Shown here: positions 12,827 to 24,634 of the stretch, piece after piece
How positions within the stretch are numbered: position 1 is the stretch's first letter
Layout of the letters: each line of letters starts with the position of its first letter
Assembly: GCF_000724545.1 (NCBI RefSeq)
Contig: NZ_JHBV01000041.1
Location: 248,001 to 312,000 of the forward strand
DNA length: 64,000 bases
Direction: 5' to 3'
Source of the DNA: Aureispira sp. CCB-QB1
Lineage (GTDB): Bacteria > Bacteroidota > Bacteroidia > Chitinophagales > Saprospiraceae
The notes under the pieces: generated by a model
What the model saw: the letters and a program-made list of their open reading frames with translations, nothing else
What the model was told of the DNA's origin: nothing
Database searches by the model: none
Position numbers and translations under genes: made by a program

Positions 12827-14665
12827 TTAATAAGAAGACTTCTTACGCTGTTCCTCCACCCGTTCTACAAAATCCACTATAATATGAGTTGCTTTTTCTG
12901 GATTGACCATATGGTAAAGATGTTCTCTAAACAAATCCGTTTCTTTTTCGTCCGTTACATCAACGACCGTTACATTAGGTGTTTGGTGTAATTTAGGCGA
13001 AAATTTGGCGATAGCATCCTTTTCACTTTTAAGAATTAAAACAGGCACATTGTATTTGGCCATATTTTCCATTGATGTTTGCTTATCGTGTGATTTAGAT
13101 TCTAACAAAGCCGCATGGACTTGTATGGCAAACACTTTGGCAGGCAAACGACTCAACGCTCGCTCAATTGGTATTCTATCCAAGTGAGGAACAGAATCTA
13201 GATTGGTCATAATATATAAAATCCGCTCTTTTACGGCTTGCCAAATTCGCTCTCGTGTGACCGAATCTTTTCGAATCAGCCAATCAGTCAATCGGATGCC
13301 TCTTTTTCGCACCCCTTTGCGCGTATCCAAAGGAACCAAGCGACGCAAGGTCATCAACATTGTTTTCCACCCTGTATTTTTTCTAAAACTAACAGCAGGC
13401 AATAAAACATTATCTAGGAAACCTATAAAGGCATGTTTGGCGTGTTCGCAGAAAAACGGGTTTGCTCCAATTCTACCACACAAGTATTTTTGGATTCCAG
13501 ATAGGCTTTTGTAATCTCGATCCATTAGCATAAAATAGGTATTCCCCATAGAGTGATCGAAGATGTATACAGAATGCCCTCGCTCTCCAAAATAAGTCAC
13601 AACCTCATTGATGTTCTTAACCACGTGATTTGAATACAGCTTCGGGGGGAGATCATGAGGAATAGAACCATAGTGCATCGCTGCTCCAATACACTGATGT
13701 GTTGGCAATTCTGCCAAAATTCCATCAAAGGAATTCAAGCCCAAAAATCCATGAATTAGTAAAACAACAGGCAATTTTTCTGTCGCATGCTCATCATAAG
13801 GCTTGGCAAAGTCTAAACGAATGGTACTAGGACCATAAGGCGTTTGGCGCACAATCTCTATCTGAGGCCAAGTCAATGCCTGATCGTCTATAAATACCGT
13901 CATTCGATCTTGGACCTTGTCTATGTGGCGTAAAAAACTTGGACTTTCATTGGCTTTTCCCCAACGATAATACAACCATGCCAATGGACGGCGCTTGTCT
14001 GACTTGGTAGCCAAAAATGCAATGCGCTTTGATTTTGCCAAAAAACTAGGAGTCCCTGTTATTTCCTTCTCTCCTACGTCATCAACAATAATCACAAGTT
14101 CATCAGATGCAAAAGCCTCAGAGTTTCTAGAAACAGCGGCCACTTTTCCTGTTGGGTCAAAACTCAGAAAAACATAATCAAACCCGACCTTGTTATTTTC
14201 TTTTAAATAGTTCTTGAGACGATTATTAAACCCTTCTGCATATTGATCTATATCATCTCTATTTAGACTTCTTCCTAAGATTTGATCTTTGGTTATAAGC
14301 CCTTTACGAAGCATTTTAGTCAAAAATGCCCGTGCATCCATAACACCTTCTAAACCTCGTTGGCGTTTTAATCTAGAATTGGTGAATGTAAAACGAATAA
14401 GCGAAGGATTGCTTATTTCATGGTAATGTTCCAAAATATACTCGTAAGCACCAGCGGGAGATTGCCCATGTGCCAGTCCAACCAGAAATTTTTGTCCCTG
14501 CCCTATTATTTTATTGGCATACTCAATAAAGTCCTGCCCTACAGCTCGATCAAACTCTTCTTTAGTTCTGAAATAAAGTGTTTCTGGAACTTCAAGATCG
14601 GAAGTGTTGCTAATCTTTTGGGAATGAGGAAATGGGGTAAACTCAAAAGATTTATTTTTCGTCAT
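12827..14665 (-). CDS. 6-phosphogluconolactonase/NagB-like domain fused to alpha/beta hydrolase
   Basis: The 612-residue protein has two recognisable parts. Residues about 30-245 resemble the sugar-phosphate isomerase/6-phosphogluconolactonase fold: an AHGQSPAGAYEYI loop (65-77) replaces the usual G-G-S/T-x-x-x phosphate loop, FTFTNSRL follows, and FDYVFLSFDPTGKVAAV (162-178) stands where G-x-G-x-D-G-H-x-A-S is found in active enzymes. The C-terminal part, from about 297, is an alpha/beta hydrolase with an oxyanion-type LIHGFLGL (303-310), a nucleophile elbow DHSMGN with S372, and a possible acid D550 and base H585. It has no signal peptide. The first domain lacks the canonical catalytic histidine, so it may only bind a ligand. 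A lone gene; substrate unknown. Confidence 0.6.
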   Translation of the reverse strand: MTKNKSFEFTPFPHSQKISNTSDLEVPETLYFRTKEEFDRAVGQDFIEYANKIIGQGQKFLVGLAHGQSPAGAYEYILEHYHEISNPSLIRFTFTNSRLKRQRGLEGVMDARAFLTKMLRKGLITKDQILGRSLNRDDIDQYAEGFNNRLKNYLKENNKVGFDYVFLSFDPTGKVAAVSRNSEAFASDELVIIVDDVGEKEITGTPSFLAKSKRIAFLATKSDKRRPLAWLYYRWGKANESPSFLRHIDKVQDRMTVFIDDQALTWPQIEIVRQTPYGPSTIRLDFAKPYDEHATEKLPVVLLIHGFLGLNSFDGILAELPTHQCIGAAMHYGSIPHDLPPKLYSNHVVKNINEVVTYFGERGHSVYIFDHSMGNTYFMLMDRDYKSLSGIQKYLCGRIGANPFFCEHAKHAFIGFLDNVLLPAVSFRKNTGWKTMLMTLRRLVPLDTRKGVRKRGIRLTDWLIRKDSVTRERIWQAVKERILYIMTNLDSVPHLDRIPIERALSRLPAKVFAIQVHAALLESKSHDKQTSMENMAKYNVPVLILKSEKDAIAKFSPKLHQTPNVTVVDVTDEKETDLFREHLYHMVNPEKATHIIVDFVERVEEQRKKSSY

Positions 14666-14876
14666 TATATTTTATAATTGATTTTCGTATGAACGTTGTC
14701 AATAGTTTGTTATAATCGTCTAATACAAACTACCAAACTGCTATAATAAGCTTTTTTTCTGCAAAATGACAAACATTTTTAAACATTTCTATTCGTCTTA
14801 AAGTAAGTCTTTAAACTACTTTTCTTCCAAAAACATGGTTATAGACATTACAAACACACCAGCTACCAACAATCAC

Positions 14877-15119
14877 TTATTGATTAGGAAATTTTTCGAA
14901 TAGTGCAATTTTGCCTGTAATAGTTTGTTGCTGGGCAGGACTAAGGGCTCTAAATATACCATACAAGTCATCCTCCAACTGATAAGTCTCTCCTGTCTCT
15001 TCTTCTATAAACTCTTTTATTTTTGTGCGAAGTAATCGGCGAGATACTTTTATTTTTTCCAACTGTTCTTCTGGTGTTAGATATCTTTTTTCTTCCGTTT
15101 CGTTATTATTCTCTTCCAT
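14877..15119 (-). CDS. Small charged protein of unknown function
   Basis: This 80-residue product is acidic at its N-terminus (MEENNNETEE) and helical in the middle (EEQLEKIKVSRRLLRTKIKEFIEEE). It has no signal peptide, membrane segment or cysteine. I do not recognise it. It lies 45 bases downstream of the secreted nuclease gene on the same strand, which makes co-transcription plausible, but the composition does not say whether the two products work together. The regular codon use and a clean ATG support a real gene. Confidence 0.55.
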   Translation of the reverse strand: MEENNNETEEKRYLTPEEQLEKIKVSRRLLRTKIKEFIEEETGETYQLEDDLYGIFRALSPAQQQTITGKIALFEKFPNQ

Positions 15120-15164
15120 AAATTATATGATTTAATCACCTCTCCAACATTAAAGGGCTCTTCT

Positions 15165-16418
15165 TTATCGGGGTAAAGCTTTTCCTTTATCATCTAAAAA
15201 AGTAACTTTTTTTTCATTTTCAACTGTCATCGTTGGCTTTCCCTTATAATCTGTTATTTTTCCTGTAATGCATATTTTTTTTCCTAAAAATTCAATTTCA
15301 GGGTCATAGCTAAAATTCTTAATATTACTAGCCCAAACCGAGCCAGAAAAAGTGTGATTAGGGAATTTGGCATCAAAGTTAAAGAAAACCGAACCTCCAT
15401 TCGTTTTGCGTGTCGAAACAACCATGCCACAAACACATGCTTTTTTATTCATAAACAAATCTGCTTCAACAGAGTTCAAGGTATTTTTAGGTCGTTCGCT
15501 TAATTTCAAAGGTTCTTGTGTAGGAATTTCGCCCTCTTTGAGTTCTTCCCATTTCGCATAATCAAAATTAGCTTCTAACTCGCTTTCCAATGTCTCATCC
15601 AAATTGGGAAAAAAGTCCAAGCCTGTTATTTTTTCTACTTCGTCAACAGAAACAGCGTAAGAGACCAAAGGTTGTGTACACAGTTCGTTGGGCATTACAA
15701 AAGCAATTGCCTTTTTCTCTTCGCCAGTTACATCTAAAATCACTTTATAAAATCGCTTGGGAATAGATACAACATTAGGTCCTTGCGTGATCGTTTCCAT
15801 TTCGTTATCAAAAACAGGTCCTGTAATTACATAGAGTTGTTCATTTTTAACCCATACATGCTTTCGAATAAAACTTTCTAAATCTGCCCACCCCTCTCGA
15901 TTTAACTCTGGACGTTGTGGAGCCATATTCGAATAAACATATGATTCACTAATTGCTCTGCTCGACCATCTAAAATCTGCCGATGGAGCTAGATGCCCTC
16001 TATCATAACCACTATACCAATAATCTGCTTTGACAGCGGATCCAGTAGAGACCAAAGAATCTCGCCGAAAGTCGTTGGTTCTAGACAAATTACCTTTGTT
16101 GACAGCTGGTATAATAATATGAGCTACCCAATTGGCTTGTTCATGGGTTTCGTTATAACCTAATATCATAGCACCATGTTCTACCACTTCATTTTTCACA
16201 GTTTCAGGCACTTCAGGAAGCCCAACAGAACGAATATCTTCTTTAATTTTTTTTAAGCGCAAAATTTCCAAATCATCTGCCAATGCTGCTTGACGTGCTT
16301 CTAAATTAAGTGCTTCTTTTTCTAAATTGGCAATTAAATCTGCTGTTTTTACTTGAGCTAACATAGGGTAATTTCCCAATAAAAAAAGAACAGCAAACCA
16401 ATTAATATGCTTTAACAT
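15165..16418 (-). CDS. Secreted DNA/RNA non-specific endonuclease with C-terminal OB-fold-like domain
   Basis: The start at 16418 gives a clear signal peptide (MLKHINWFAV to PMLAQ, residues 1-22) and 417 residues; a longer frame begins 33 codons upstream without a sensible N-terminus. Residues 80-280 form the beta-beta-alpha-metal nuclease domain of the Serratia NucA/EndoG type. The active site motif DRGH is at 139-142 with H142 as general base, and N173 in NMAPQRPELNREGW is the expected magnesium ligand. Residues about 320-410 hold a second domain (ACVCGMVVSTR to KICITGKITDYKGKPTM) that resembles an OB fold and could bind nucleic acid. The enzyme should degrade extracellular nucleic acid for nutrients or defence. 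Confidence 0.85.
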   Translation of the reverse strand: MLKHINWFAVLFLLGNYPMLAQVKTADLIANLEKEALNLEARQAALADDLEILRLKKIKEDIRSVGLPEVPETVKNEVVEHGAMILGYNETHEQANWVAHIIIPAVNKGNLSRTNDFRRDSLVSTGSAVKADYWYSGYDRGHLAPSADFRWSSRAISESYVYSNMAPQRPELNREGWADLESFIRKHVWVKNEQLYVITGPVFDNEMETITQGPNVVSIPKRFYKVILDVTGEEKKAIAFVMPNELCTQPLVSYAVSVDEVEKITGLDFFPNLDETLESELEANFDYAKWEELKEGEIPTQEPLKLSERPKNTLNSVEADLFMNKKACVCGMVVSTRKTNGGSVFFNFDAKFPNHTFSGSVWASNIKNFSYDPEIEFLGKKICITGKITDYKGKPTMTVENEKKVTFLDDKGKALPR

Positions 16419-16973
16419 TTGGTCAAAGTTTTTTGAGAGTATGCTTAAAAAAAATTGGTTTTCACAGCTAAAATTTCCAAGCCTATCCCTGATATAAAAA
16501 GTGCATTCAACCTTCATTCAAAAGAATAAAGAATTTTTAAAGATACAACTATTATCAACAATATTTTAGTAGAAATTAAAGGAATCCATTCCTTAACATA
16601 GAATTCAGTTTTACTTAAAGCAAGAGTGCAACAATGTTTTAGGACAATTTTCTAGATAAAAAGTAGCATTCTATTCTCTAAATTACTAGCAAATAAACGG
16701 GTATATATTTAGGTGTTTTGTACCTAAATATCTTTTTTCCTCTCTTTTTATTACAACTAAGATTTAACACTTTTAGCTTATAATAAAAAGATTCTACAAA
16801 AATAAACACCATCTCTTAAACATCGTATCTTGACAATCTAATTACAGATTAGAATCGTTCATTCGTTGTTTTTTTATTCAAAATATATCTTATCAAATTA
16901 ATAAAAAATCCTATTTTAATAACAAAAATAACCACTTTAATAAAACTTTATTTCAAAAATCAATCCATCTTTC
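16419..16973. other. Intergenic gap, 555 bases, with an orphan terminator
   Basis: No protein-coding frame is convincing here. The gap lies between divergent genes, so promoters for both should be inside. A short hairpin (7-bp stem) occurs at 16579-16594, and a full terminator-like hairpin occurs at 16705-16738 although no rightward gene precedes it. A short rightward RNA between about 16430 and 16738 would explain it. Confidence 0.4.
16705..16738 (+). terminator. Orphan Rho-independent terminator in a divergent intergenic region
   Basis: A perfect 10-bp stem (16705-16714 with 16722-16731), a seven-base loop and a six-T tail face rightward. The nearest upstream gene runs the other way, so the transcript it ends is not an annotated gene. 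Confidence 0.6.
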
Positions 16974-17480
16974 ATGTTCTTAAAGTTAATTCATATTCTC
17001 AATATTTGGACGGTTCTATTCTCTACCATAGGGATTGCAACCTATAGTCATTATTGTCAAGATGAATTAAAAGCCATTGCTTTTTTTGTTAATACCATAC
17101 AACCTTGTTGTAAAAAACAAAAAGCAAAAGAACAAAATGCATTCCCAAAGGTACTAGCTAAAACTTGTTGCTCAAACTCCAAAAACTTATACCTAAGTTG
17201 CTTTGATCAAGCTCTCTTGCAGCAACAAAACTCTTTTAAGAAGAAGCCTTGTTGTTTAGATGAACAGTCATTGGCAAAATCTGACTTAAACGCTGTTTCT
17301 TCAGAATTAGATTTAGAAACAACCGCCCAATACCTTCATCAACTCCCTTTTTATGCACCTATATTTCCAAAGCAACATACTATACTAGGGTTTAGCTCAT
17401 TTGCTCAGCATCCTATTGCTTATTTTTTCCCTCCGCCAGATGTTCCTTTATACATTTTGCATCAATCATTTTTATGTTAG
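16974..17480 (+). CDS. HYC_CC_PP family protein
   Basis: The three short motifs that name this Bacteroidota family are present in order: HYC in YSHYCQDE (residues 26-28), CC pairs (PCCKKQ, TCCSNS and PCCLDE), and PPP in YFFPPPDVP near the C-terminus. The first 24 residues are a hydrophobic signal or anchor. The protein has many cysteines for 168 residues, which fits binding of a soft metal such as copper; this is inference. It stands upstream of the MbnP/MbnH-like genes on the same strand but is separated by 389 bases that include a repeat element, so a separate transcript is likely. Confidence 0.8.
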   Translation: MFLKLIHILNIWTVLFSTIGIATYSHYCQDELKAIAFFVNTIQPCCKKQKAKEQNAFPKVLAKTCCSNSKNLYLSCFDQALLQQQNSFKKKPCCLDEQSLAKSDLNAVSSELDLETTAQYLHQLPFYAPIFPKQHTILGFSSFAQHPIAYFFPPPDVPLYILHQSFLC

Positions 17481-17667
17481 AGAGCAACTATTTATAGCTA
17501 CTTTATAGCTACAATAGAGACACCAGACCTATTGTGTTATAAGCTTATTTAGCCCTGCTTGTTGATTTTTTATGCCATAACCAATGGTATAAAGTAGGTC
17601 TTTAGTGTACTAAATGACAAATCAATCAATGAACAAGCATAACAATAACTTTTTAAAGTCTATTAAC

Positions 17668-17834
17668 AATAGTTCGTTGAAACCACGCAGTAGCAGCGCA
17701 GCTAAACTTTATTAGCTTGATAATCAATAAGTTGTAAATTTATTGCGTTTTGTGTTAAAAATTTGATTATCAAACTAATATAAATGTGCTTTTTTATCTT
17801 TTTGGTAAAAAAGTAAAGAATCAACGAACTACTA
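17668..17834. repeat. Dispersed palindromic element, GTTCGTTG subtype, reversed, with GC-rich module
   Basis: The ends CAATAGTTCGTTGA and TCAACGAACTACTA are inverted copies. A module of the type CCACGCAGTAGCAGCGCAGC lies just inside the left end. The rest matches the 145-bp copies read in the opposite direction, including the GATAATCAA...TTGATTATCAAACTA inner repeat. It fills most of the 389-base gap before the MbnP-like gene. Confidence 0.8.
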
Positions 17835-17869
17835 TATTAAAATAGTTAATCACAATAATATACATAATA

Positions 17870-18826
17870 ATGAAAAATATAATTTTATTCCTCTGTGCTA
17901 CCTTAGCATTACAGACATCCTATGCTCAAAAAGACGTCTACTTCAAAATTAATCATCTCCTTGGAAGCAGCAATTTTGCTTTTAACCAGACAACACCCAA
18001 TAATGTTGGTAGTGATTTTCAAGTAACTCGTTTACAATACTACATTAGCAATATTACGCTTTACCATGATGGTACTCAAACAGCTGTCAACAATACCTTT
18101 ATTTTGGTTAATGCCAATACCTCTACTAATCAATTACTAGGTAATTTTAATATTAACAACTTAGATAGTGTTTCTTTTGGCATTGGGGTAGGTAATGCAG
18201 AAAATCATTTAGACCCAACGACTTATCCTGCCAATCATCCTCTAGCGCCACAATCACCTTCTATGCATTGGGGGTGGACAGCTGGCTATCGTTTCGTTGC
18301 ATTCGAGGGCGTTTCAGGTTCCTCTATGTCTGATGTTTTTCAAATGCACGGCTTAGGCGACAGCAACTACAAAGTTAAAACGATTGTGACCAATGGTTAT
18401 ATCAATAATAATGATTTAGAAGTAATTATTGATGCAGATTATGCCAAAGCATTGCACTCTATAGATGTCAGTTCGGGAGTTGTTAGTCATGGAGAAACAG
18501 GTGCTGCTAGGACTGTTCTCAACAATTTTAACACCCTAGTATTTTCGGATGGTTCTATGTCTGTGCCTGTTGTCAAGTTGGCTTCTAGCACGATTTCTAT
18601 ATATCCCAATCCCGTAAGAGTAGGGCAAACATTAACGATTGATGCTGATGAATCGTTGGATACTAGTGTTGAGATTTATGATATGACGGGCAAAGTATAT
18701 TCCAATATTATTGCCTCTCCTGACAAGAAGAACATCCAATTTTTAGATGCTGGTTGGTATATTTTGAACCTAAAAAAAGAAGGACAAGTTATTACTTCAC
18801 AAAAAATATCCGTGACTCATGAATAA
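17870..18826 (+). CDS. MbnP-like copper-binding protein with T9SS sorting domain
   Basis: The 318-residue product has a signal peptide (residues 1-19, ending SYAQ) and an MbnP-type domain at about 20-235. Family hallmarks are RLQYYISNI (54-62), HLDPTTYPANHPLAPQSP (113-130) and SMHWGWTAGYRFVAFEG (131-147). In the studied methanotroph protein MbnP, a partner di-haem enzyme MbnH changes a tryptophan to kynurenine, which then takes part in copper binding; the tryptophans W134 and W136 are candidates here. Residues about 240-318 form a type A T9SS sorting domain (SISIYPNPVRVG), so the protein should be exported and kept at the cell surface. It overlaps the MbnH-like gene by eight bases, so the two are translationally coupled. 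Confidence 0.85.
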   Translation: MKNIILFLCATLALQTSYAQKDVYFKINHLLGSSNFAFNQTTPNNVGSDFQVTRLQYYISNITLYHDGTQTAVNNTFILVNANTSTNQLLGNFNINNLDSVSFGIGVGNAENHLDPTTYPANHPLAPQSPSMHWGWTAGYRFVAFEGVSGSSMSDVFQMHGLGDSNYKVKTIVTNGYINNNDLEVIIDADYAKALHSIDVSSGVVSHGETGAARTVLNNFNTLVFSDGSMSVPVVKLASSTISIYPNPVRVGQTLTIDADESLDTSVEIYDMTGKVYSNIIASPDKKNIQFLDAGWYILNLKKEGQVITSQKISVTHE

Positions 18827-19910
18827 CAGTAATAACACAAAACTTCTTCCTGTTTGCCTCTTACTCTCAATTATATTGTTGGGATACGGGTGCCACACCA
18901 AAGAAGAACCACTAGTTTATAAACCTATTGCTTATCAATTAGAAACTGGAGACTTGCCACCACCAAATCTGCCAATGGACAATCCACTTACAACCGATGG
19001 TGTGCAATTGGGGCGGATGTTATTTCACGAAAAAAAGCTGTCTTTAGATGCTTCTATTAGCTGCTCTTCTTGCCATTTGCAAGAGTATGGTTTTTCTGAT
19101 ACCGCTACTTTCTCAAAAGGTGTTAATGACCTTCGAGGGCATCGACAAGCAATGTCTGTCTTTAATTTAGCATGGAATACCAATGGATTTTTTTGGGATG
19201 GACGTGCCGAATTGCTTAGGCATCAGGCATTGTTACCAATACAAGATGCGCTGGAAATGCAAGAAACGATGCCCAGTGTAGTCGCTAAACTACAGGCGGA
19301 ACAACAATACCGCAATCAATTCTTTTTGGCTTTTGGCGATGAGACTATTACAGAAGAACGCATAGCGTTAGCACTAGAACAGTTTATGTTTTCTATTGTG
19401 TCCGTAGATAGCAAATATGACCGACATTTGCGAGGTGAAGTCGCTCTAACAACCGCTGAACAAAGAGGAAAAGATTTATTTTTCAACGAATACAATCCAT
19501 CTTTTCCTGCTATATCTGGTGCCGATTGTGCGCATTGCCACTCAGGAAAAAACTTCGAGAATGATGATTATATGAATAATGGCTTGGACTCTATTTTTAC
19601 AGATAATGGAAGAGAAAAGGCAACTCTTAATAGTTCTGACAAAGCTAAATTTAAGGTTCCTTCGTTGAGAAATATAGCATTGACAGCTCCTTATATGCAC
19701 GATGGTCGCTTCAAGACCTTAGAGGAAGTTGTTCAACATTATAATACAGGTTTGATCAACTCTCCTACTATAGATCCAGCATTATTATACCCTTATCACA
19801 ATGGAGGGTTAATGCTCTCAAACCAAGACATTCAAGATTTAATTGCTTTTCTGAAAACATTAACAGACGATAAGCTAGCAACCAAGGAGGAATATAGCTC
19901 TCCTTTTTAG
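18819..19910 (+). CDS. MbnH-like di-haem cytochrome c peroxidase lipoprotein
   Basis: This 363-residue protein is a di-haem member of the cytochrome c peroxidase/MauG superfamily. The two haem c sites are CSSCH (82-86) and CAHCH (237-241). It begins with a lipoprotein signal ending LLGYGC at C25. The pairing with an MbnP-type gene through an eight-base overlap suggests the MbnH subgroup, whose enzymes oxidise a tryptophan of MbnP rather than simply reduce peroxide. Later conserved segments, FKVPSLRNIALTAPYMHDG and GGLMLSNQDIQDLIAFLKTL, are typical of the superfamily. Haem attachment needs cytochrome c maturation genes, which are not in the window. Confidence 0.85.
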   Translation: MNNSNNTKLLPVCLLLSIILLGYGCHTKEEPLVYKPIAYQLETGDLPPPNLPMDNPLTTDGVQLGRMLFHEKKLSLDASISCSSCHLQEYGFSDTATFSKGVNDLRGHRQAMSVFNLAWNTNGFFWDGRAELLRHQALLPIQDALEMQETMPSVVAKLQAEQQYRNQFFLAFGDETITEERIALALEQFMFSIVSVDSKYDRHLRGEVALTTAEQRGKDLFFNEYNPSFPAISGADCAHCHSGKNFENDDYMNNGLDSIFTDNGREKATLNSSDKAKFKVPSLRNIALTAPYMHDGRFKTLEEVVQHYNTGLINSPTIDPALLYPYHNGGLMLSNQDIQDLIAFLKTLTDDKLATKEEYSSPF

Positions 19911-19921
19911 TTGATTACTAA

Positions 19922-19951
19922 TAGAGGCGTAGTTTTAAGGCTACGCCTCTA
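19922..19951. terminator. Hairpin between the two di-haem peroxidase genes
   Basis: A perfect 11-bp stem (19922-19932 with 19941-19951) with an eight-base loop lies 12 bases after the MbnH-like stop. There is no T run, so it may protect the 3' end or reduce read-through into the next gene. Confidence 0.5.
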
Positions 19952-19972
19952 CAATCATATCAAATATAACTT

Positions 19973-21010
19973 ATGCTAAAAGTGGTTACTCTATCTTTGT
20001 GGGTTTTTATTTTTTGCTATGGCACAATAGGATGCCATACAGCTAGTTCTTCCATGGGTTTTTATGATAATTTACCTCATAATTTCCCAAGTATCCAACA
20101 CCCTGAAGATAACTTACCAACAGAACTCCGTGTTCAGTTAGGGCGAATGCTTTTCTACGACCCTATTCTATCTAAAGACAGCACCGTATCTTGTGCCAGT
20201 TGTCACAAACAGCAATTTGCTTTTGCCGACAGTGTGCCCCTTAGTTTGGGTGTAGAACAACGTCTCGGGACTCAAAATGCGCCCTCTCTAGTTAATGTTG
20301 CCTATGCCCCCTATTTTACAAGAGCAGGAGGTGTCCCTACTTTAGAAATGCAAATCTTAGTTCCTATTCAAGAAACACATGAGCTCGATTTTAATATAGT
20401 ATTGGCCGCCCAACGAATCGCCAAAGACAGCCTCTATAGTACCATGAGCCTAGCAGCTTATAATCGCCCTCCTGACCCTTATGTTGTCACCCGTTCTATT
20501 GCTGCTTTTGAACGCAGTTTGGTTGCTGCCCATTCTCCTTACGACAAGTATACTTACTATCGTAAAAAAAAGGCGCTTAGTTCTAGTGCTCAAAGAGGGC
20601 TACAACTATTTATGAGTCATAAAACAGATTGTTCTTCGTGTCATACCCCGCCTCATTTTTCTAATTTTTCGTTTCAAAACAATGGTCTATACGAACACTA
20701 TGCTGATTCTGGTAGAATTCGGCTGACTTATCAAGAACAAGATCGGGCTCTTTTTAAGGTGCCTTCCTTAAGAAACATTAGCATGAGTGCTCCATATATG
20801 CACGATGGCAGCCTTCAAACCTTAGAAGAGGTCATCCAACATTACAACAGAGGAGGACAACCACACAAACACAAAAGTCCTCTTATTCGTCCACTTCATT
20901 TGAATACTCAAGAACAAAAGGATTTGGTGGCATTTTTAGAATCACTGACAGATAAGTATATTCTAACTCATCCTTCTTTTAGCAATCCCCATCATTCCAT
21001 AAAACATTAA
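19973..21010 (+). CDS. Second di-haem cytochrome c peroxidase lipoprotein
   Basis: This 345-residue protein has the same plan as the gene before it. Haem sites are CASCH (74-78) and CSSCH (220-224), and the lipoprotein signal ends GTIGC at C21. The segment FKVPSLRNISMSAPYMHDG is almost the same as in the MbnH-like neighbour, so the two are paralogues, though the rest differs clearly. It starts 62 bases after its neighbour with a hairpin between. It may act on the same MbnP-like substrate, reduce hydrogen peroxide, or serve another protein; the sequence does not decide. Confidence 0.85.
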   Translation: MLKVVTLSLWVFIFCYGTIGCHTASSSMGFYDNLPHNFPSIQHPEDNLPTELRVQLGRMLFYDPILSKDSTVSCASCHKQQFAFADSVPLSLGVEQRLGTQNAPSLVNVAYAPYFTRAGGVPTLEMQILVPIQETHELDFNIVLAAQRIAKDSLYSTMSLAAYNRPPDPYVVTRSIAAFERSLVAAHSPYDKYTYYRKKKALSSSAQRGLQLFMSHKTDCSSCHTPPHFSNFSFQNNGLYEHYADSGRIRLTYQEQDRALFKVPSLRNISMSAPYMHDGSLQTLEEVIQHYNRGGQPHKHKSPLIRPLHLNTQEQKDLVAFLESLTDKYILTHPSFSNPHHSIKH

Positions 21011-21027
21011 AAATGTATCGAATCTTT

Positions 21028-22248
21028 TTACTCCAATGGTTCTACTCTAGTCATCCCACATCTAAAACCAATCAAACGCTCTTGTTGCCCTCCAGCTTTT
21101 GCGCCTTTTCGGTTTCCTGGGCTTTTTTCATTAACAGATTTAGCGCCCTTAAGTACACGTAAGCTATTGGCATCTACCTTTAAATGAGACTGAGCAGCCT
21201 TCCCTTTTGCGACCACTTCTTCCCATGGTGTTTCTATGACACTCATTTGATCTTCAGGAATTGTTTTTTGAGTATCCTTGGATTGAGGTGCCGTTATTGG
21301 TTTTGGAATGTTTTCCACTACTTTGGAAATAGGTTGATAAACATCGTACACCCATTCTGCTACATTCCCATTCATATTAAAAATCCCATAAGCATTAATA
21401 TCTCCTTCAAAGACACATTTAGGCAAGTTGTGTTTCTCAGCATTATAATAATTAGGAACAGGATATTTTCGAGCGTGGCGCAAGGCTTTTTTTCTTTCTT
21501 GGTTTATCTCTTTTTTATAATGCTTTTCTTTCCCGTCCGTAGGTGTCGATACTAATTGTTGGTTAGCCACATAACCATCCTCATTTTGAAGGCGCTTGCC
21601 AATTAATGCCCAAGCTGCATACTCCCATTCTGCTTCGGTTAGTAATCGATGATTGGGCAAGAATAGATTGTGACCATTAGGAAAATCTATCCCTTCTTTT
21701 TTATGATAAGTTCCCGAAAGGAATTCAGCCGTAGAAAAAGCATATTTCTCTTGCATCTCTGAAGACCACAATCCGCTTGTTTTAGCGAGCTGTTCGTTAT
21801 AACGGTCCGATTTCCATTTTGTAAATGCAGTAGCTTGCAACCAAGATACCCCAACAACAGGATAATAATCAAATGCTGGAAGTCTAAAATAATCGTTAAC
21901 AAGTTGCTCACCGACCTCTTTAGAGACACAACGTTGCCATATACTTGTATCAGGTAACATTGCTACTACCTGTGATTTATTGTGCTTATTTAGCCAATTG
22001 ATGAATGCCCTATATTCCTTATTCGTTACTTCCGTTGGTGCTATATAAAAGGCACTAACCGTTACTCTACGAACAATATCCTCCTCTGCATCTTGCCCCA
22101 TGTTATACGTACCTCCTTCTATAAATAATAAGTTGTCTTTCTCTATTTGTTTACTCGACATCCAATTCCCAGATTGAGCCATTCCTAACATAGGAAATAA
22201 CAACCATAATAAAACCAACTTAAGTTCTTTGTTTAATAGTGTGTTCAT
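21028..22248 (-). CDS. SUMF1/formylglycine-generating-enzyme-like protein, GldJ/GldK-related
   Basis: The 406-residue protein has a signal peptide (to about LGMAQ, residue 25) and a SUMF1 fold. Visible segments are LFIEGGTYNMG (41-51), TEVTNKEYRAFINWL (72-86), LLTEAEWEYAAWA (202-214), YGIFNMNGNVAEWVYDVYQP (287-306) and IGFRCGM near the end. The EWVYDVYQPIS wording is like GldJ and GldK of the gliding/T9SS machinery, but it has no lipobox cysteine and the usual R-V-x-K-G-G-S-W segment is changed to RVLKGAKSV. It may therefore be a divergent GldK-type structural protein rather than a sulfatase-activating enzyme. It converges with the second peroxidase gene, 17 bases apart. Confidence 0.75.
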   Translation of the reverse strand: MNTLLNKELKLVLLWLLFPMLGMAQSGNWMSSKQIEKDNLLFIEGGTYNMGQDAEEDIVRRVTVSAFYIAPTEVTNKEYRAFINWLNKHNKSQVVAMLPDTSIWQRCVSKEVGEQLVNDYFRLPAFDYYPVVGVSWLQATAFTKWKSDRYNEQLAKTSGLWSSEMQEKYAFSTAEFLSGTYHKKEGIDFPNGHNLFLPNHRLLTEAEWEYAAWALIGKRLQNEDGYVANQQLVSTPTDGKEKHYKKEINQERKKALRHARKYPVPNYYNAEKHNLPKCVFEGDINAYGIFNMNGNVAEWVYDVYQPISKVVENIPKPITAPQSKDTQKTIPEDQMSVIETPWEEVVAKGKAAQSHLKVDANSLRVLKGAKSVNEKSPGNRKGAKAGGQQERLIGFRCGMTRVEPLE

Positions 22249-22320
22249 GGTAATTATTCTTTTATTTTTTTAAAATCTATCAATACGTCCTTTTAGCAGA
22301 CTTTTGTTAATCTAGCAACT

Positions 22321-22354
22321 CATTGAAACCGCACGGTAACAATACAACTAAATC
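22321..22354. repeat. Fragment of the GC-rich repeat module
   Basis: CATTGAAACCGCACGGTAAC is a degenerate copy of the TTGAAACCACG[AC]AGTAGC module that occurs inside several of the larger elements. No partner arm is seen nearby. Confidence 0.4.
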
Positions 22355-22485
22355 ATCTTGTTTTTAGATCTATTCTTTTTCTACTAAAAAGGAATCACGC
22401 AAAGCAAATTATTTTTATCGTTAAAAACTCCTTTAAAATCATTATATTAAAGTGATCAAACTTTTTACAATCAAAACCAAATCGA

Positions 22486-24174
22486 ATGAAAAAACTTATT
22501 TTACTCTGTGTTTTCTCTTTTTCTCTGCTTCAAACTAGCCTAGGACAACAACATTTAGTTTCCTATCAACTCGTACAACATTACGACATTCAAGATGTCC
22601 AAGCGATTTTAAATGGCTTTGGGATTCCGCCTACTGTTGTAGCCCCTGAATTTGAATTAGATTATTACAAAGTAAGTTATACAACATCTAATGCAAGAGG
22701 GAATGGAACGACAATTGCCACAGGAGCACTTGTAGTGCCAACGGGTGTTACCTGTCCTGTTCCTTTGGTCAGTTACCAACACGGAACAACAACTACCAAA
22801 ACAAGTGTTCCTTCTTATCAAGGTGGCTCCGAGTATCAAATTGGGGTATTGGCATCTGCTATTGCTGGCGTCGTTTGTGCCATGCCCGATTACTTAGGCT
22901 TAGGAGACGAACCTGGATTTCATCCCTATATAAATTCTAGAACTGAGGCTTCTGCCACTATTGACATGATGCGAGCTGCTCGTGAGCTGAAAGATAGTTT
23001 AGGTTTTAATTTAAACGACCAAGTTTTTTTGTTTGGCTATTCTCAAGGTGGTCATTCTACAATGGCAGCATTCAAAGAAATTGAAACCAATCTTTCCAAC
23101 GAATTTACAGTAACTGCTTGCGCTCCTATGTCGGGACCTTACGATGTATCAGGTGTACAAGCTGCGACCATTACGAACCCTCAACCTTATGCAACTCCAG
23201 CTTATTTACCTTATGTTATTTTGGGTGCGCAAGAGGCATATGGGAATGTCTACAACAATCTTTCTGAGATTTTCCGTTCTCCTTACGATACATTACTACC
23301 AAGTTATTTTGATGGCGTTCATTCTACAGGTTGGATTAACAATCAATTACCAGATACCCCAAGTCATATGCTGGATTCTACTTTTTTTAGTAATTATATA
23401 AACGACCCCAACCATTTTGGTAGGGTATTATTAAGAGAGCAAGATGTTTATAGTTGGGTTCCTCAAGCTCCTTTGGCTATGTATTATTGTGAAGGAGACG
23501 AACAGGTATTTTATGGCAATTCTGTTGTAGCACTGGACACAATGACTGCTTTGGGCGCTCTAAATGTCTCTGCAACAGAACTAGGACCTACCTTAGATCA
23601 TACGGCTTGTGCTCCATTAGCCATTCTTTCTGCTTTTGCATTTTTTGAACTATACATGGATTTAAGTGGTGGAATGACATTGAACAACACTGTTGTAGAT
23701 GCTTCCTCTGGCACTAGTAACGACGGCTCGATTACACTTTTAGCCAACAATGGTACAGGACCCTATGTTTATGATTGGCAAGGCAGCTTAGCTGGTCAAA
23801 CTACAGATAGCGTATCGGGGCTTGCACCCGATGTGTATGAAGTTAGGGTATCCGATGCACGTGGTTGTTATATCAAGCAAGATATTACCGTTAGTGTCGC
23901 ATCTTCTATCACCTCTATTGATCCTGCCAGCAACTACTTTAAAATAATGCCTAATCCTAGTCAAAATACATTCTATCTAAAAGTTGTCCGACCACTCAAC
24001 AGCTCTTATAACGTTAGCATTATAGATATGTTGGGACGCACTGTTCATCAGACATTTAATGCAGATAGCCCCTTTATTAGTTATGACGTAAGTCAAATTC
24101 CGAATGGAACATATTGGGTTCGTCTAGAACATGAGGCAGATATTTACACTCAAAAGTTAGTCATCCAACGATGA
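22486..24174 (+). CDS. Secreted lipase-like alpha/beta hydrolase with SprB repeat and T9SS domain
   Basis: The 562-residue protein has a signal peptide (residues 1-20, ending SLGQ). The hydrolase domain (about 30-395) resembles secretory lipases: YQHGTTT (98-104) is the oxyanion region, GYSQGG (184-189) holds the nucleophile S186, D338 in CEGDEQ is the probable acid and H372 in LDHTACAP the base. Residues 398-470 form one SprB-type repeat (YEVRVSDARGCYIKQDITV is its core, GC at 460-461). Residues about 483-562 are a type A T9SS sorting domain (YFKIMPNPSQNTFYLKV). The enzyme should act on esters or lipids outside the cell and stay at the surface. It is transcribed alone and ended by a strong hairpin. 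Confidence 0.88.
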   Translation: MKKLILLCVFSFSLLQTSLGQQHLVSYQLVQHYDIQDVQAILNGFGIPPTVVAPEFELDYYKVSYTTSNARGNGTTIATGALVVPTGVTCPVPLVSYQHGTTTTKTSVPSYQGGSEYQIGVLASAIAGVVCAMPDYLGLGDEPGFHPYINSRTEASATIDMMRAARELKDSLGFNLNDQVFLFGYSQGGHSTMAAFKEIETNLSNEFTVTACAPMSGPYDVSGVQAATITNPQPYATPAYLPYVILGAQEAYGNVYNNLSEIFRSPYDTLLPSYFDGVHSTGWINNQLPDTPSHMLDSTFFSNYINDPNHFGRVLLREQDVYSWVPQAPLAMYYCEGDEQVFYGNSVVALDTMTALGALNVSATELGPTLDHTACAPLAILSAFAFFELYMDLSGGMTLNNTVVDASSGTSNDGSITLLANNGTGPYVYDWQGSLAGQTTDSVSGLAPDVYEVRVSDARGCYIKQDITVSVASSITSIDPASNYFKIMPNPSQNTFYLKVVRPLNSSYNVSIIDMLGRTVHQTFNADSPFISYDVSQIPNGTYWVRLEHEADIYTQKLVIQR

Positions 24175-24213
24175 CCTGGAATTCAAGCATTGTAAACGTT
24201 ATCAAAACACTAG

Positions 24214-24249
24214 ATAATCTTCTATCCTAAGCGATAGAAGATTATTTTT
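24214..24249. terminator. Terminator between convergent genes
   Basis: A 13-bp perfect stem (24214-24226 with 24233-24245) is followed by five T residues on the plus strand. It includes the stop codon of the leftward gene that ends at 24242, so both transcripts probably use it. Confidence 0.8.
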
Positions 24250-24634
24250 CAGTTTCCTTTTTATGAGGGGTTGCTCGATGAGTATATGTGAATAAATCGC
24301 CTTTATTTCGATGCAATAATTGTATTGCGACAAGACATTCAAAATTATCAGGGAGTTCTGTCAACGTAGTTTCTATTTCATAGCCATCTCTTAACTCAAT
24401 TCCATATAACCAACCTGTTTCTGCAACCAACGCATCGTTAATAAAAATTTTCATTTGTGGATAATCGTTCCTTGAATAAGTTCCTTTTGCTTCAAAAACA
24501 AGGCAATACCCCTCGTATGCTTTGCATTTTTCTAAGTGAATTCCTTTCAATTCCAAGTCATTGATTACTTTTTGTGCTTGTAAAGGTATGCAAGCGACAA
24601 TTCCTAAAATCAAACTAAGCATAAGTCTTTTCAT
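24242..24634 (-). CDS. Small secreted protein of unknown function
   Basis: The 130-residue product begins with a signal peptide (residues 1-20, ending PLQAQ). The mature part is beta-rich and has three cysteines, two of them close together (KCKAYEGYC, residues 37-44). I recognise no domain. A lysine-rich tail ends the protein, and the stop codon lies within the terminator hairpin shared with the lipase-like gene. It is the only gene of its transcript; the next gene upstream runs the other way. Confidence 0.6.
   Translation of the reverse strand: MKRLMLSLILGIVACIPLQAQKVINDLELKGIHLEKCKAYEGYCLVFEAKGTYSRNDYPQMKIFINDALVAETGWLYGIELRDGYEIETTLTELPDNFECLVAIQLLHRNKGDLFTYTHRATPHKKETEK

Follow-up and report, generated by a model that had tools for sequence, protein, structure and literature searches.

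A gene set at positions 16,974 to 21,010 of a window of 64,000 nucleotides from Aureispira sp. CCB-QB1 (contig NZ_JHBV01000041.1, positions 248,001 to 312,000; all positions below are those of the window) was analysed. With moderate confidence, the set is regarded as a two-enzyme version of the MbnP/MbnH copper-protein system that ends on the cell surface and is preceded by a probable leader similar to CutF and CruR. The set comprised an HYC_CC_PP gene, a gene for an MbnP-like protein with a C-terminal sorting domain of the type IX secretion system (T9SS), and two genes for di-haem lipoproteins, termed DH1 and DH2 (Table 1). This arrangement, including an overlap of 8 bases between the MbnP and DH1 genes, had been proposed in a preliminary description of the window and was confirmed by the open reading frames (ORFs) and profile scores. 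The arrangement is beyond chance because the same gene set recurred in 36 of the 61 loci with this type of MbnP, the window included. The set is a real and recurrent unit, its unequal enzyme pair goes beyond the preliminary description, and the leader plausibly adds a copper switch of a known kind. The link of the locus to copper is suggested by family membership and by the neighbourhood; among 141 locus neighbours scanned (of 197 picked), 5 were HMA/CopZ-like and 15 were HYC_CC_PP proteins. Among the openly licensed papers listed, no report was found on a T9SS-type MbnP, on paired enzymes with and without the inter-haem tryptophan for MbnP, or on HYC_CC_PP by name.

Table 1. Features of the gene set in the window.
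Feature	Position	Strand	Remark
Candidate leader ORF for copper sensing, HYC_CC_PP family, 168 aa	16974..17480	+	NF047658 46.7 bits (cut-off 28); in relatives, the distances from CC to PP and from PP to the C-terminus are near-constant
Last CC pair of the HYC protein	17250..17255	+	
Last Pro-Pro of the HYC protein	17430..17435	+	starts 16 residues from the protein end
HYC–MbnP gap outside the repeat	17481..17659	+	17480-17625 folds better than shuffles, z -3.3
Dispersed MITE-like (miniature inverted-repeat transposable element) repeat stretch	17660..17860	.	48 matches in own genome, this copy counted; scoring covered 40 of 620 candidates
MbnP-like copper-binding-type protein with C-terminal T9SS domain, 318 aa	17870..18826	+	
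MHWGW motif, M132 to W136	18263..18277	+	aligned with WNW of canonical MbnP
T9SS type A sorting domain, residues 244-314	18599..18811	+	
DH1, di-haem lipoprotein, 363 aa	18819..19910	+	inter-haem Trp present
DH1 Trp126, inter-haem position	19194..19196	+	W in 28/28 DH1 rows
DH1 Tyr308, axial-ligand column	19740..19742	+	two MbnH and one MauG also have Tyr in this column, two CcpAs have Met
DH2, di-haem lipoprotein, 345 aa	19973..21010	+	inter-haem Trp replaced
DH2 Arg117, replacing the inter-haem Trp	20321..20323	+	R in 96% of 27 DH2 rows
DH2 Tyr291, axial-ligand column	20843..20845	+	27/27 DH2 rows

MbnP-like protein

The MbnP-like protein matched PF20243 (102.8 bits, cut-off 27) and the fold of 7l6g, and its tail matched Por_Secre_tail (38.1 bits) and TIGR04183 (49.1 bits, cut-off 23). 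The TIGR04183 domain, together with the T9SS component SprA encoded in the same genome (2416 bits), identified the protein as a T9SS cargo of type A. The score against TIGR04052 was 41 bits, below the equivalog cut-off of 140 bits. The closest named relative found belonged to an uncultured Aureispira (locus L015, 74% identical). The family was widespread: PF20243 was detected in at least 129 of the 149 genomes of the order, and the 7.37 Mb genome of the window had six MbnP matches (one under the cut-off).

W134 and W136 corresponded to the tryptophans of the WxW motif and did not vary across 33 aligned sequences, that of the window among them. This invariance was partly selected because the search for relatives had used six peptides taken from the window protein, including MHWGWTAG. 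In MbnP, the first tryptophan of WxW is turned into kynurenine, and W134 is likely the kynurenine site. The window protein contained no cysteine after the signal peptide, and none stood among the conserved columns of alignment A2, whereas cysteines were invariant in the five canonical MbnP sequences and a four-cysteine motif is named in the 7l6g record.

The known MbnP/MbnH pairs of methanotrophs and others (7l6g, 6e1c and the M. parvus and Ideonella records) shared with the window the MbnP fold, the WxW motif, a di-haem enzyme with the tyrosine, and adjacent genes, which overlapped in M. parvus as in the window. They differed in that the window MbnP carried a T9SS domain and lacked the conserved cysteines, and in that two enzymes were present, one without the inter-haem tryptophan. 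In the tree, MbnP of the MHWGW type formed one clade of 47 rows (support 100), and a second protein of the same genome (L130) also fell inside it. Between tailed and untailed forms 3 changes were counted, one of which was a split ORF (L053). T9SS-tailed MbnP-like proteins were also observed in L096, L099, L102 and L130, where the fetched stretch held no di-haem gene.

Residues and phylogeny of the di-haem enzymes

Both enzymes matched CCP_MauG (DH1 181 bits, DH2 151 bits), and the genome had nine such matches in eight ORFs, the window enzymes included. Against TIGR04039, named the MbnH family, DH1 scored 230 bits and DH2 284 bits (cut-off 362.85), and against the MauG model TIGR03791 they scored 182 and 177 bits (cut-off 443.85). 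Since the NCBIfam cut-offs were not reached, the enzymes and the MbnP represent a separate branch. The kinship with MbnP and MbnH asserted in the preliminary description thus stood by fold and tree and had to be loosened at the level of the NCBIfam models.

The inter-haem tryptophan of the TIGR04039 type was present in DH1 (W126) and was not found in DH2 (R117). The axial tyrosine column of the MbnH type was occupied in both enzymes (Y308 and Y291), and the methionine of the CcpA type was found in neither. The peroxide-pocket columns were retained, and DH2 possessed the Gln, Pro and Glu columns in addition to the tyrosine. A branch with support 100/99 set three CcpAs apart from both window enzymes; hence, the grouping of both proteins with CcpA, which had been named in advance as the outcome that would speak against the proposal, did not occur. 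An identity as CcpA-like peroxidases was rejected on the axial tyrosine and the tree position. The more general reading, that both enzymes are ordinary peroxide-reducing peroxidases and the MbnP-like protein an unmodified surface protein, agrees with the shared superfamily and the retained pocket columns; it is considered very improbable in view of the axial tyrosine in place of methionine, the position in the tree away from CcpA, and the tight linkage to MbnP.

DH1 and DH2 fell into separate clades and recurred together, and an origin of DH2 as a local duplicate was rejected. The nearest relatives of DH2 that bear the tryptophan (L124 and L125) were the sole di-haem genes beside their MbnP. 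In the plasmid records L080, L081, L141 and L142, the MbnH gene adjacent to MbnP was labelled 'methanobactin export MATE transporter MbnM', an apparent naming error; the enzymes of L080 and L081 scored as MbnH. In an Azonexus record (L085, 746-3014), two neighbouring di-haem genes immediately preceded the genes that the record names as the small and large subunits of arsenate reductase (azurin).

Recurrence of the two-enzyme set

The 61 loci with MbnP of the MHWGW type were divided according to their enzymes: 36 held both kinds, 13 the tryptophan-less kind only, 3 the tryptophan-bearing kind only, and 2 neither, and 7 were cut by contig or locus ends. These loci were not independent (L058 and L097 were identical, and L031, L032, L037, L039 and L042 were close). 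At the inter-haem position of the tryptophan-less enzyme, the 36 two-enzyme loci had arginine in 34 cases, lysine in one (L016) and phenylalanine in one (L025). The second enzyme is neither a spare nor a local one, and the pairing of a tryptophan-bearing with a tryptophan-less enzyme is recurrent. The preliminary description had rightly noted that the known pair offers no role for a second enzyme, and the two kinds together constitute a recurring set. The constant pairing of tryptophan and arginine in the MHWGW clade suggests a division of labour.

For comparison, 40 stretches around PF20243 places were picked by hand, 20 with ORFs of at least 300 aa and 20 with shorter ones. The T9SS tail was lacking in 33 of the 40, and 26 of the 40 MbnPs were lipoproteins by an in-house rule. 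A single di-haem gene (in pieces in one case) was found in 30 of the 33 untailed stretches, with the tryptophan in 24. These lipoprotein MbnP sets of Bacteroidota, such as L087, L110 and C42 of the own genome, shared families and gene order with the window and differed from it in the lipid anchor of MbnP and the single enzyme. The remaining three stretches had two di-haem genes, with W and W (L115), R and W (L122), and F and W (L123) at the inter-haem position, and further two-enzyme sets with untailed MbnP were L146, L151 and L161. In L123 three lipoprotein MbnP genes, and in L115 two, stood in an array ahead of the two di-haem genes. The order MbnP – DH2 – DH1 – MbnP occurred in L045, L047 and L048, where the set was closed by a second T9SS-type MbnP.

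Partner enzymes encoded elsewhere were sought in two groups of genomes. Six genomes without an adjacent tryptophan-less enzyme were searched (L018, L043, L051, L062, L104 and L106; L051 and L062 have neither enzyme, and L104 is cut by the contig end). Five of the six had a DH2-class gene elsewhere, as assigned by the best class hidden Markov model, and no DH2-class gene was found in the two fetched loci of the sixth (G149, L018). The second group consisted of twelve genomes with the tryptophan-less enzyme only, covering 11 of the 13 uncut loci and the cut locus L020 (L060 and L067 were left out). Further di-haem genes were present in all twelve, the best one of each carrying the tryptophan, and a clear DH1-class gene elsewhere was present only in G155 and in G116 and G156, whose hits were identical. 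The proposal that each tryptophan-less enzyme needs an adjacent tryptophan-bearing one was not supported, since 18 of 43 tryptophan-less rows had none in the stretch.

Proposed mechanism and roles of the two enzymes

The computation established the gene set with its folds and key residues, the separation of the enzymes into two clades, the recurrence and the layout of the leader; the chemistry and the sequence of its steps, the location at the surface, and the binding of and regulation by copper are inferred. The MbnP-like protein would be exported by Sec, fold, and be transported and anchored by the T9SS via its C-terminal domain. DH1, with its tyrosine-ligated haem and inter-haem tryptophan, would take electrons from W134, the first tryptophan of MHWGW, via a high-valent di-haem state made with peroxide. 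This oxidation would start the conversion of W134 to kynurenine, which would complete the copper site. DH2 has the same peroxide-pocket residues and axial tyrosine, and its inter-haem wire would be cut or re-routed by the change from tryptophan to arginine. It would most likely perform a different step on the same MbnP, either a later oxidation or rearrangement or the holding of MbnP for DH1. The HYC_CC_PP ORF would most likely tune expression to copper as a leader similar to CutF and CruR. In its most specific form, a tryptophan-wired and an arginine-substituted enzyme would act in series on one tryptophan of a surface MbnP of Bacteroidota, the latter in a separate catalytic step, and the system would be switched by copper via HYC_CC_PP as a nascent leader of the CutF/CruR kind; this combination is put forward as a speculative possibility.

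Two adjacent di-haem paralogues, with the tryptophan in one and lost in the other, are also described for the oleate-diol synthase PA2077/PA2078 in the available text of PMC4496055. There, PA2077, which has the tryptophan, and then PA2078, which has serine, act successively on one substrate. DH1 and DH2 look like another case of this kind on a protein substrate. The differences are that PA2077/PA2078 acts on a fatty acid, that the substitution is to serine and not to arginine, and that haem-motif mutants of the tryptophan-less partner were active.

A different assignment is that DH2 is the true counterpart of MbnH and makes kynurenine without the inter-haem tryptophan, the part of DH1 being to supply or remove peroxide or electrons. 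DH2 was the commoner sole partner of MbnP (13 uncut loci against 3 for DH1), scored higher against TIGR04039 (284 against 230 bits), and retained the Gln, Pro and Glu columns with the tyrosine. Moreover, BthA reaches the bis-Fe(IV) state with serine in place of the tryptophan and requires the axial tyrosine (PMC6405878, available sections). BthA thus resembles DH2 in its tyrosine ligand and the lack of the tryptophan; it differs in the serine and its greater length, and no MbnP partner is mentioned in those sections. On the other side, when the sequences were compared with MbnH itself, DH1 outscored DH2 (184 and 155 bits), and the tryptophan-bearing L124 and L125 relatives of DH2 stand single beside MbnP, which fits a role of DH2 that changed once a second enzyme arrived. 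This assignment is judged unlikely. Each enzyme thus has a point in its favour as the maker of kynurenine: DH1 keeps the wire, and DH2 is the commoner sole partner.

The question has a wider bearing. In MauG, the inter-haem tryptophan is held necessary for stabilising bis-Fe(IV) and for product formation, whereas in BthA it is dispensable (PMC6405878, available sections). Its role is directly testable here because paired enzymes with and without it adjoin one protein substrate in many loci.

Several observations weigh against the two-enzyme surface mechanism. The DH2 class stood alone in 13 of the 54 uncut MHWGW loci. The tryptophan was also lost in six sole di-haem enzymes of the fetched stretches outside the DH2 clade (L089, L108, L116, L117, L119 and L126), and loss in single-enzyme pairs means that loss alone is no proof of a division of labour. 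On the tree, the loss amounted to 6 changes, and its association with an adjacent tryptophan-bearing enzyme comprised 4 independent pairs, which were too few (median p 1). The haems of the tryptophan-less partner may go unused altogether, because the PA2078 haem-motif mutants stayed active (PMC4496055, available text). The T9SS-type MbnP lacks the canonical conserved cysteines, which means that its copper site has to be at least partly different. Regarding location, DH2 of the window has no acidic export signal, the KEE of DH1 lies one residue past the optimum, and CorB is described as mainly periplasmic in the available part of PMC3912023.

Place of maturation

The preliminary description had seen a conflict between a surface product and lipoprotein enzymes. 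Both protein types were confirmed, and the conflict became smaller because lipoproteins of Bacteroidota can be exposed on the surface and about half of the enzymes had export-like N-termini. In Capnocytophaga, the surface signal of lipoproteins is C-X-K-(D/E)2 and depends on its position; different acidic versions occur in further genera (PMC5080379, available sections). Neither window enzyme had the lipoprotein export signal C-X-K-(D/E)2-X itself: the sequence was CHTKEEP in DH1, shifted by one, and CHTASSS in DH2. A looser criterion of at least two acidic residues at +2 to +6 was applied to proteins in which the in-house rule recognised a lipid cysteine, and Fisher tests that ignored kinship were used against the remaining ORFs of these loci (13 of 67 export-like, from 810). 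This rule admitted some signal-peptidase-I proteins to the background and read DH2 of the window at the wrong cysteine, with no acidic residue either way. Alongside a T9SS-type MbnP, export-like N-termini were found in 18 of 31 tryptophan-bearing enzymes (from 40 proteins; p 0.0003) and in 17 of 38 tryptophan-less ones (from 47; p 0.007). The proportions were 12 of 27 for di-haem enzymes without a T9SS-type MbnP (from 40; p 0.02) and 13 of 30 for lipoprotein MbnP (from 43; p 0.02). Since about half of the enzymes with a recognised lipid cysteine showed such residues, maturation at the surface is plausible, and the enzymes may plausibly act there. The anchor of MbnP may have switched from lipid to T9SS with the system remaining outside.

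Alternatively, maturation might take place in the periplasm ahead of T9SS export, with both enzymes facing the periplasm and their N-terminal acidic residues meaningless. The T9SS exports folded proteins, which agrees with such an order, as do the lacking signal of DH2 and the shifted one of DH1. The acidic signal was, moreover, judged by residue counts only, with kinship ignored, and a mainly periplasmic location is described for CorB as well as for its counterpart in M. alcaliphilum (PMC3912023, available part). The enrichment over background in the di-haem groups and in lipoprotein MbnP argues against it, as does the co-localisation of SACCP with MopE on the cell surface reported in the same source. 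Periplasmic maturation is retained as a possibility of some substance, held below surface maturation in confidence. The MopE/SACCP and CorA/CorB systems resemble the set in having a surface-associated kynurenine copper protein beside a di-haem gene (PMC3912023, available part) and differ in having one enzyme and no T9SS, as compared by description. If maturation occurs at the surface, the set would show how a copper protein can mature outside the cell.

HYC_CC_PP gene as a candidate leader

An HYC_CC_PP gene lay within 500 bp in 19 of the 61 MHWGW loci, in 1 of 39 loci with untailed MbnP and in 0 of 4 others. Both the CC and PP motifs were present in 23 of the 25 HYC ORFs of these loci. In these 23 ORFs, CC and PP were separated by 56.2 ± 2.1 residues, and PP lay 16.9 ± 1.4 residues from the end; the spacing from HYC to CC was looser (45.0 ± 10.4 residues, 24 ORFs). 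The next gene on either strand shared the strand of the HYC ORF in 25 of 25 cases, compared with 736 of 1062 for other genes, and the gap to it was below 20 nt in 1 of 25, compared with 304 of 736. In L021, L028 and L029 the HYC gene followed the set, and in L043 it pointed away; each of these headed another gene. The genome of the window has a second HYC gene, which preceded genes for CusA/CzcA and an outer-membrane factor.

Across the phylum, HYC_CC_PP was matched in 59 of 198 genomes, 56 of them over the cut-off. The 30 loci fetched were those returned by the search, and only same-strand ORFs were looked for downstream. Both motifs were found in 27 of the 30, with a CC-to-PP spacing of 52-61 in 26 (L184 has an extra CC near the end), and a same-strand ORF started 35-138 nt downstream in all 30. 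The downstream genes encoded CusA/CzcA in 19 loci and a TonB plug protein in 8, and the rest included HMA, MauE, an AraC-type helix-turn-helix protein and a T9SS tail.

This architecture, a metal motif and a Pro-Pro at constant spacing in the first gene before copper genes, is analogous to that of CutF and CruR. In CruR, the spacing of CXXC and RAPP is constant within one or two residues and the gaps are long, and CruR leads copper operons that can include MbnPH-like genes (PMC9426467, available text). In the Ideonella record, the order was DUF2946 – MbnP – MbnH, with DUF2946 in the slot of HYC. CutF-like proteins, defined by a length of <150 aa, a signal peptide, PP among the final 15 residues and a downstream gene on the same strand, have been catalogued broadly. 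Bacteroidota account for 19% of them (40% after normalisation), and the genes that follow encode outer-membrane efflux, CusA/CzcA and TonB proteins (PMC9973294, available sections; its main text mentions neither HYC nor Mbn). The window protein, with 168 aa and PP 16 residues from the end, falls outside the length and PP filters of that study; it has a same-strand gene within the prescribed 1000 nt, and PP lies 14 residues from the end in L178-L185. It further differs from CutF and CruR in its HYC and CC motifs, in a PP that usually lies some 17 residues before the C-terminus, and in the lack of DUF2946, as a Pfam scan returned 0 families at E 0.1. In the available text of PMC12992588, copper-related RAPP leaders were not found in Bacteroidota and TonB-related ones are called general in Gram-negatives. 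The claim that HYC_CC_PP leaders are new to Bacteroidota was dropped; HYC_CC_PP is a new setting and not a new class because CutF-like leaders have already been reported there (PMC9973294, available sections). On this architectural fit, HYC_CC_PP is best placed with the CutF/CruR leader class, as a divergent relative or an analogue. If so, HYC_CC_PP would be tied to copper control of this kind in a phylum where CutF-like proteins are listed. The upstream position given in the preliminary description was retained, and a leader or sensor ORF is the more likely function.

Instead of a leader ORF, HYC_CC_PP could be a secreted copper buffer or chaperone whose C-terminus is a docking motif. Its signal-peptide-like N-terminus and many cysteines and histidines fit such a protein, as do the absence of DUF2946 in the Pfam scan and the missing PP in 5 of 55 HYC ORFs (L062, L104, L188, L190 and L206). 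The near-constant CC-to-PP and PP-to-end spacings beside the variable HYC-to-CC spacing, the invariable same-strand next gene with gaps rarely under 20 nt, and the CutF-like leaders already described before CusA/CzcA and TonB genes (PMC9973294, available sections) speak against it, and a buffer or chaperone is regarded as rather unlikely.

The gap between the candidate leader and MbnP was widened by the dispersed repeat, which was absent from L015 in an alignment with that locus; most full matches of the repeat spanned about 130-185 nt of 17660-17860. The structure of the whole gap (z -4.1) was partly due to this repeat, and therefore only 17480-17625 and the L015 leader were used. The L015 leader also folded better than shuffles (z -3.5), and 17560-17650 gave z -2.4.

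Surrounding sequence

The promoter pattern TTTG-N17-21-TANNTTTG had 8 matches in the window against 4.7 expected, with none before these genes on their strand, and an Rfam scan of 14000-24500 gave nothing at the gathering score. Adjoining the set, 21028-22248 encoded a protein with an FGE-sulfatase domain that was similar to GldJ and GldK and scored below their cut-offs, and 22486-24174 encoded a lipase-like protein that had a T9SS tail and a stretch weakly similar to SprB. Upstream, 12827-14665 encoded a large protein whose N-terminal part was similar to glucosamine-6-phosphate isomerase and whose C-terminal part matched no Pfam family above the cut-off.

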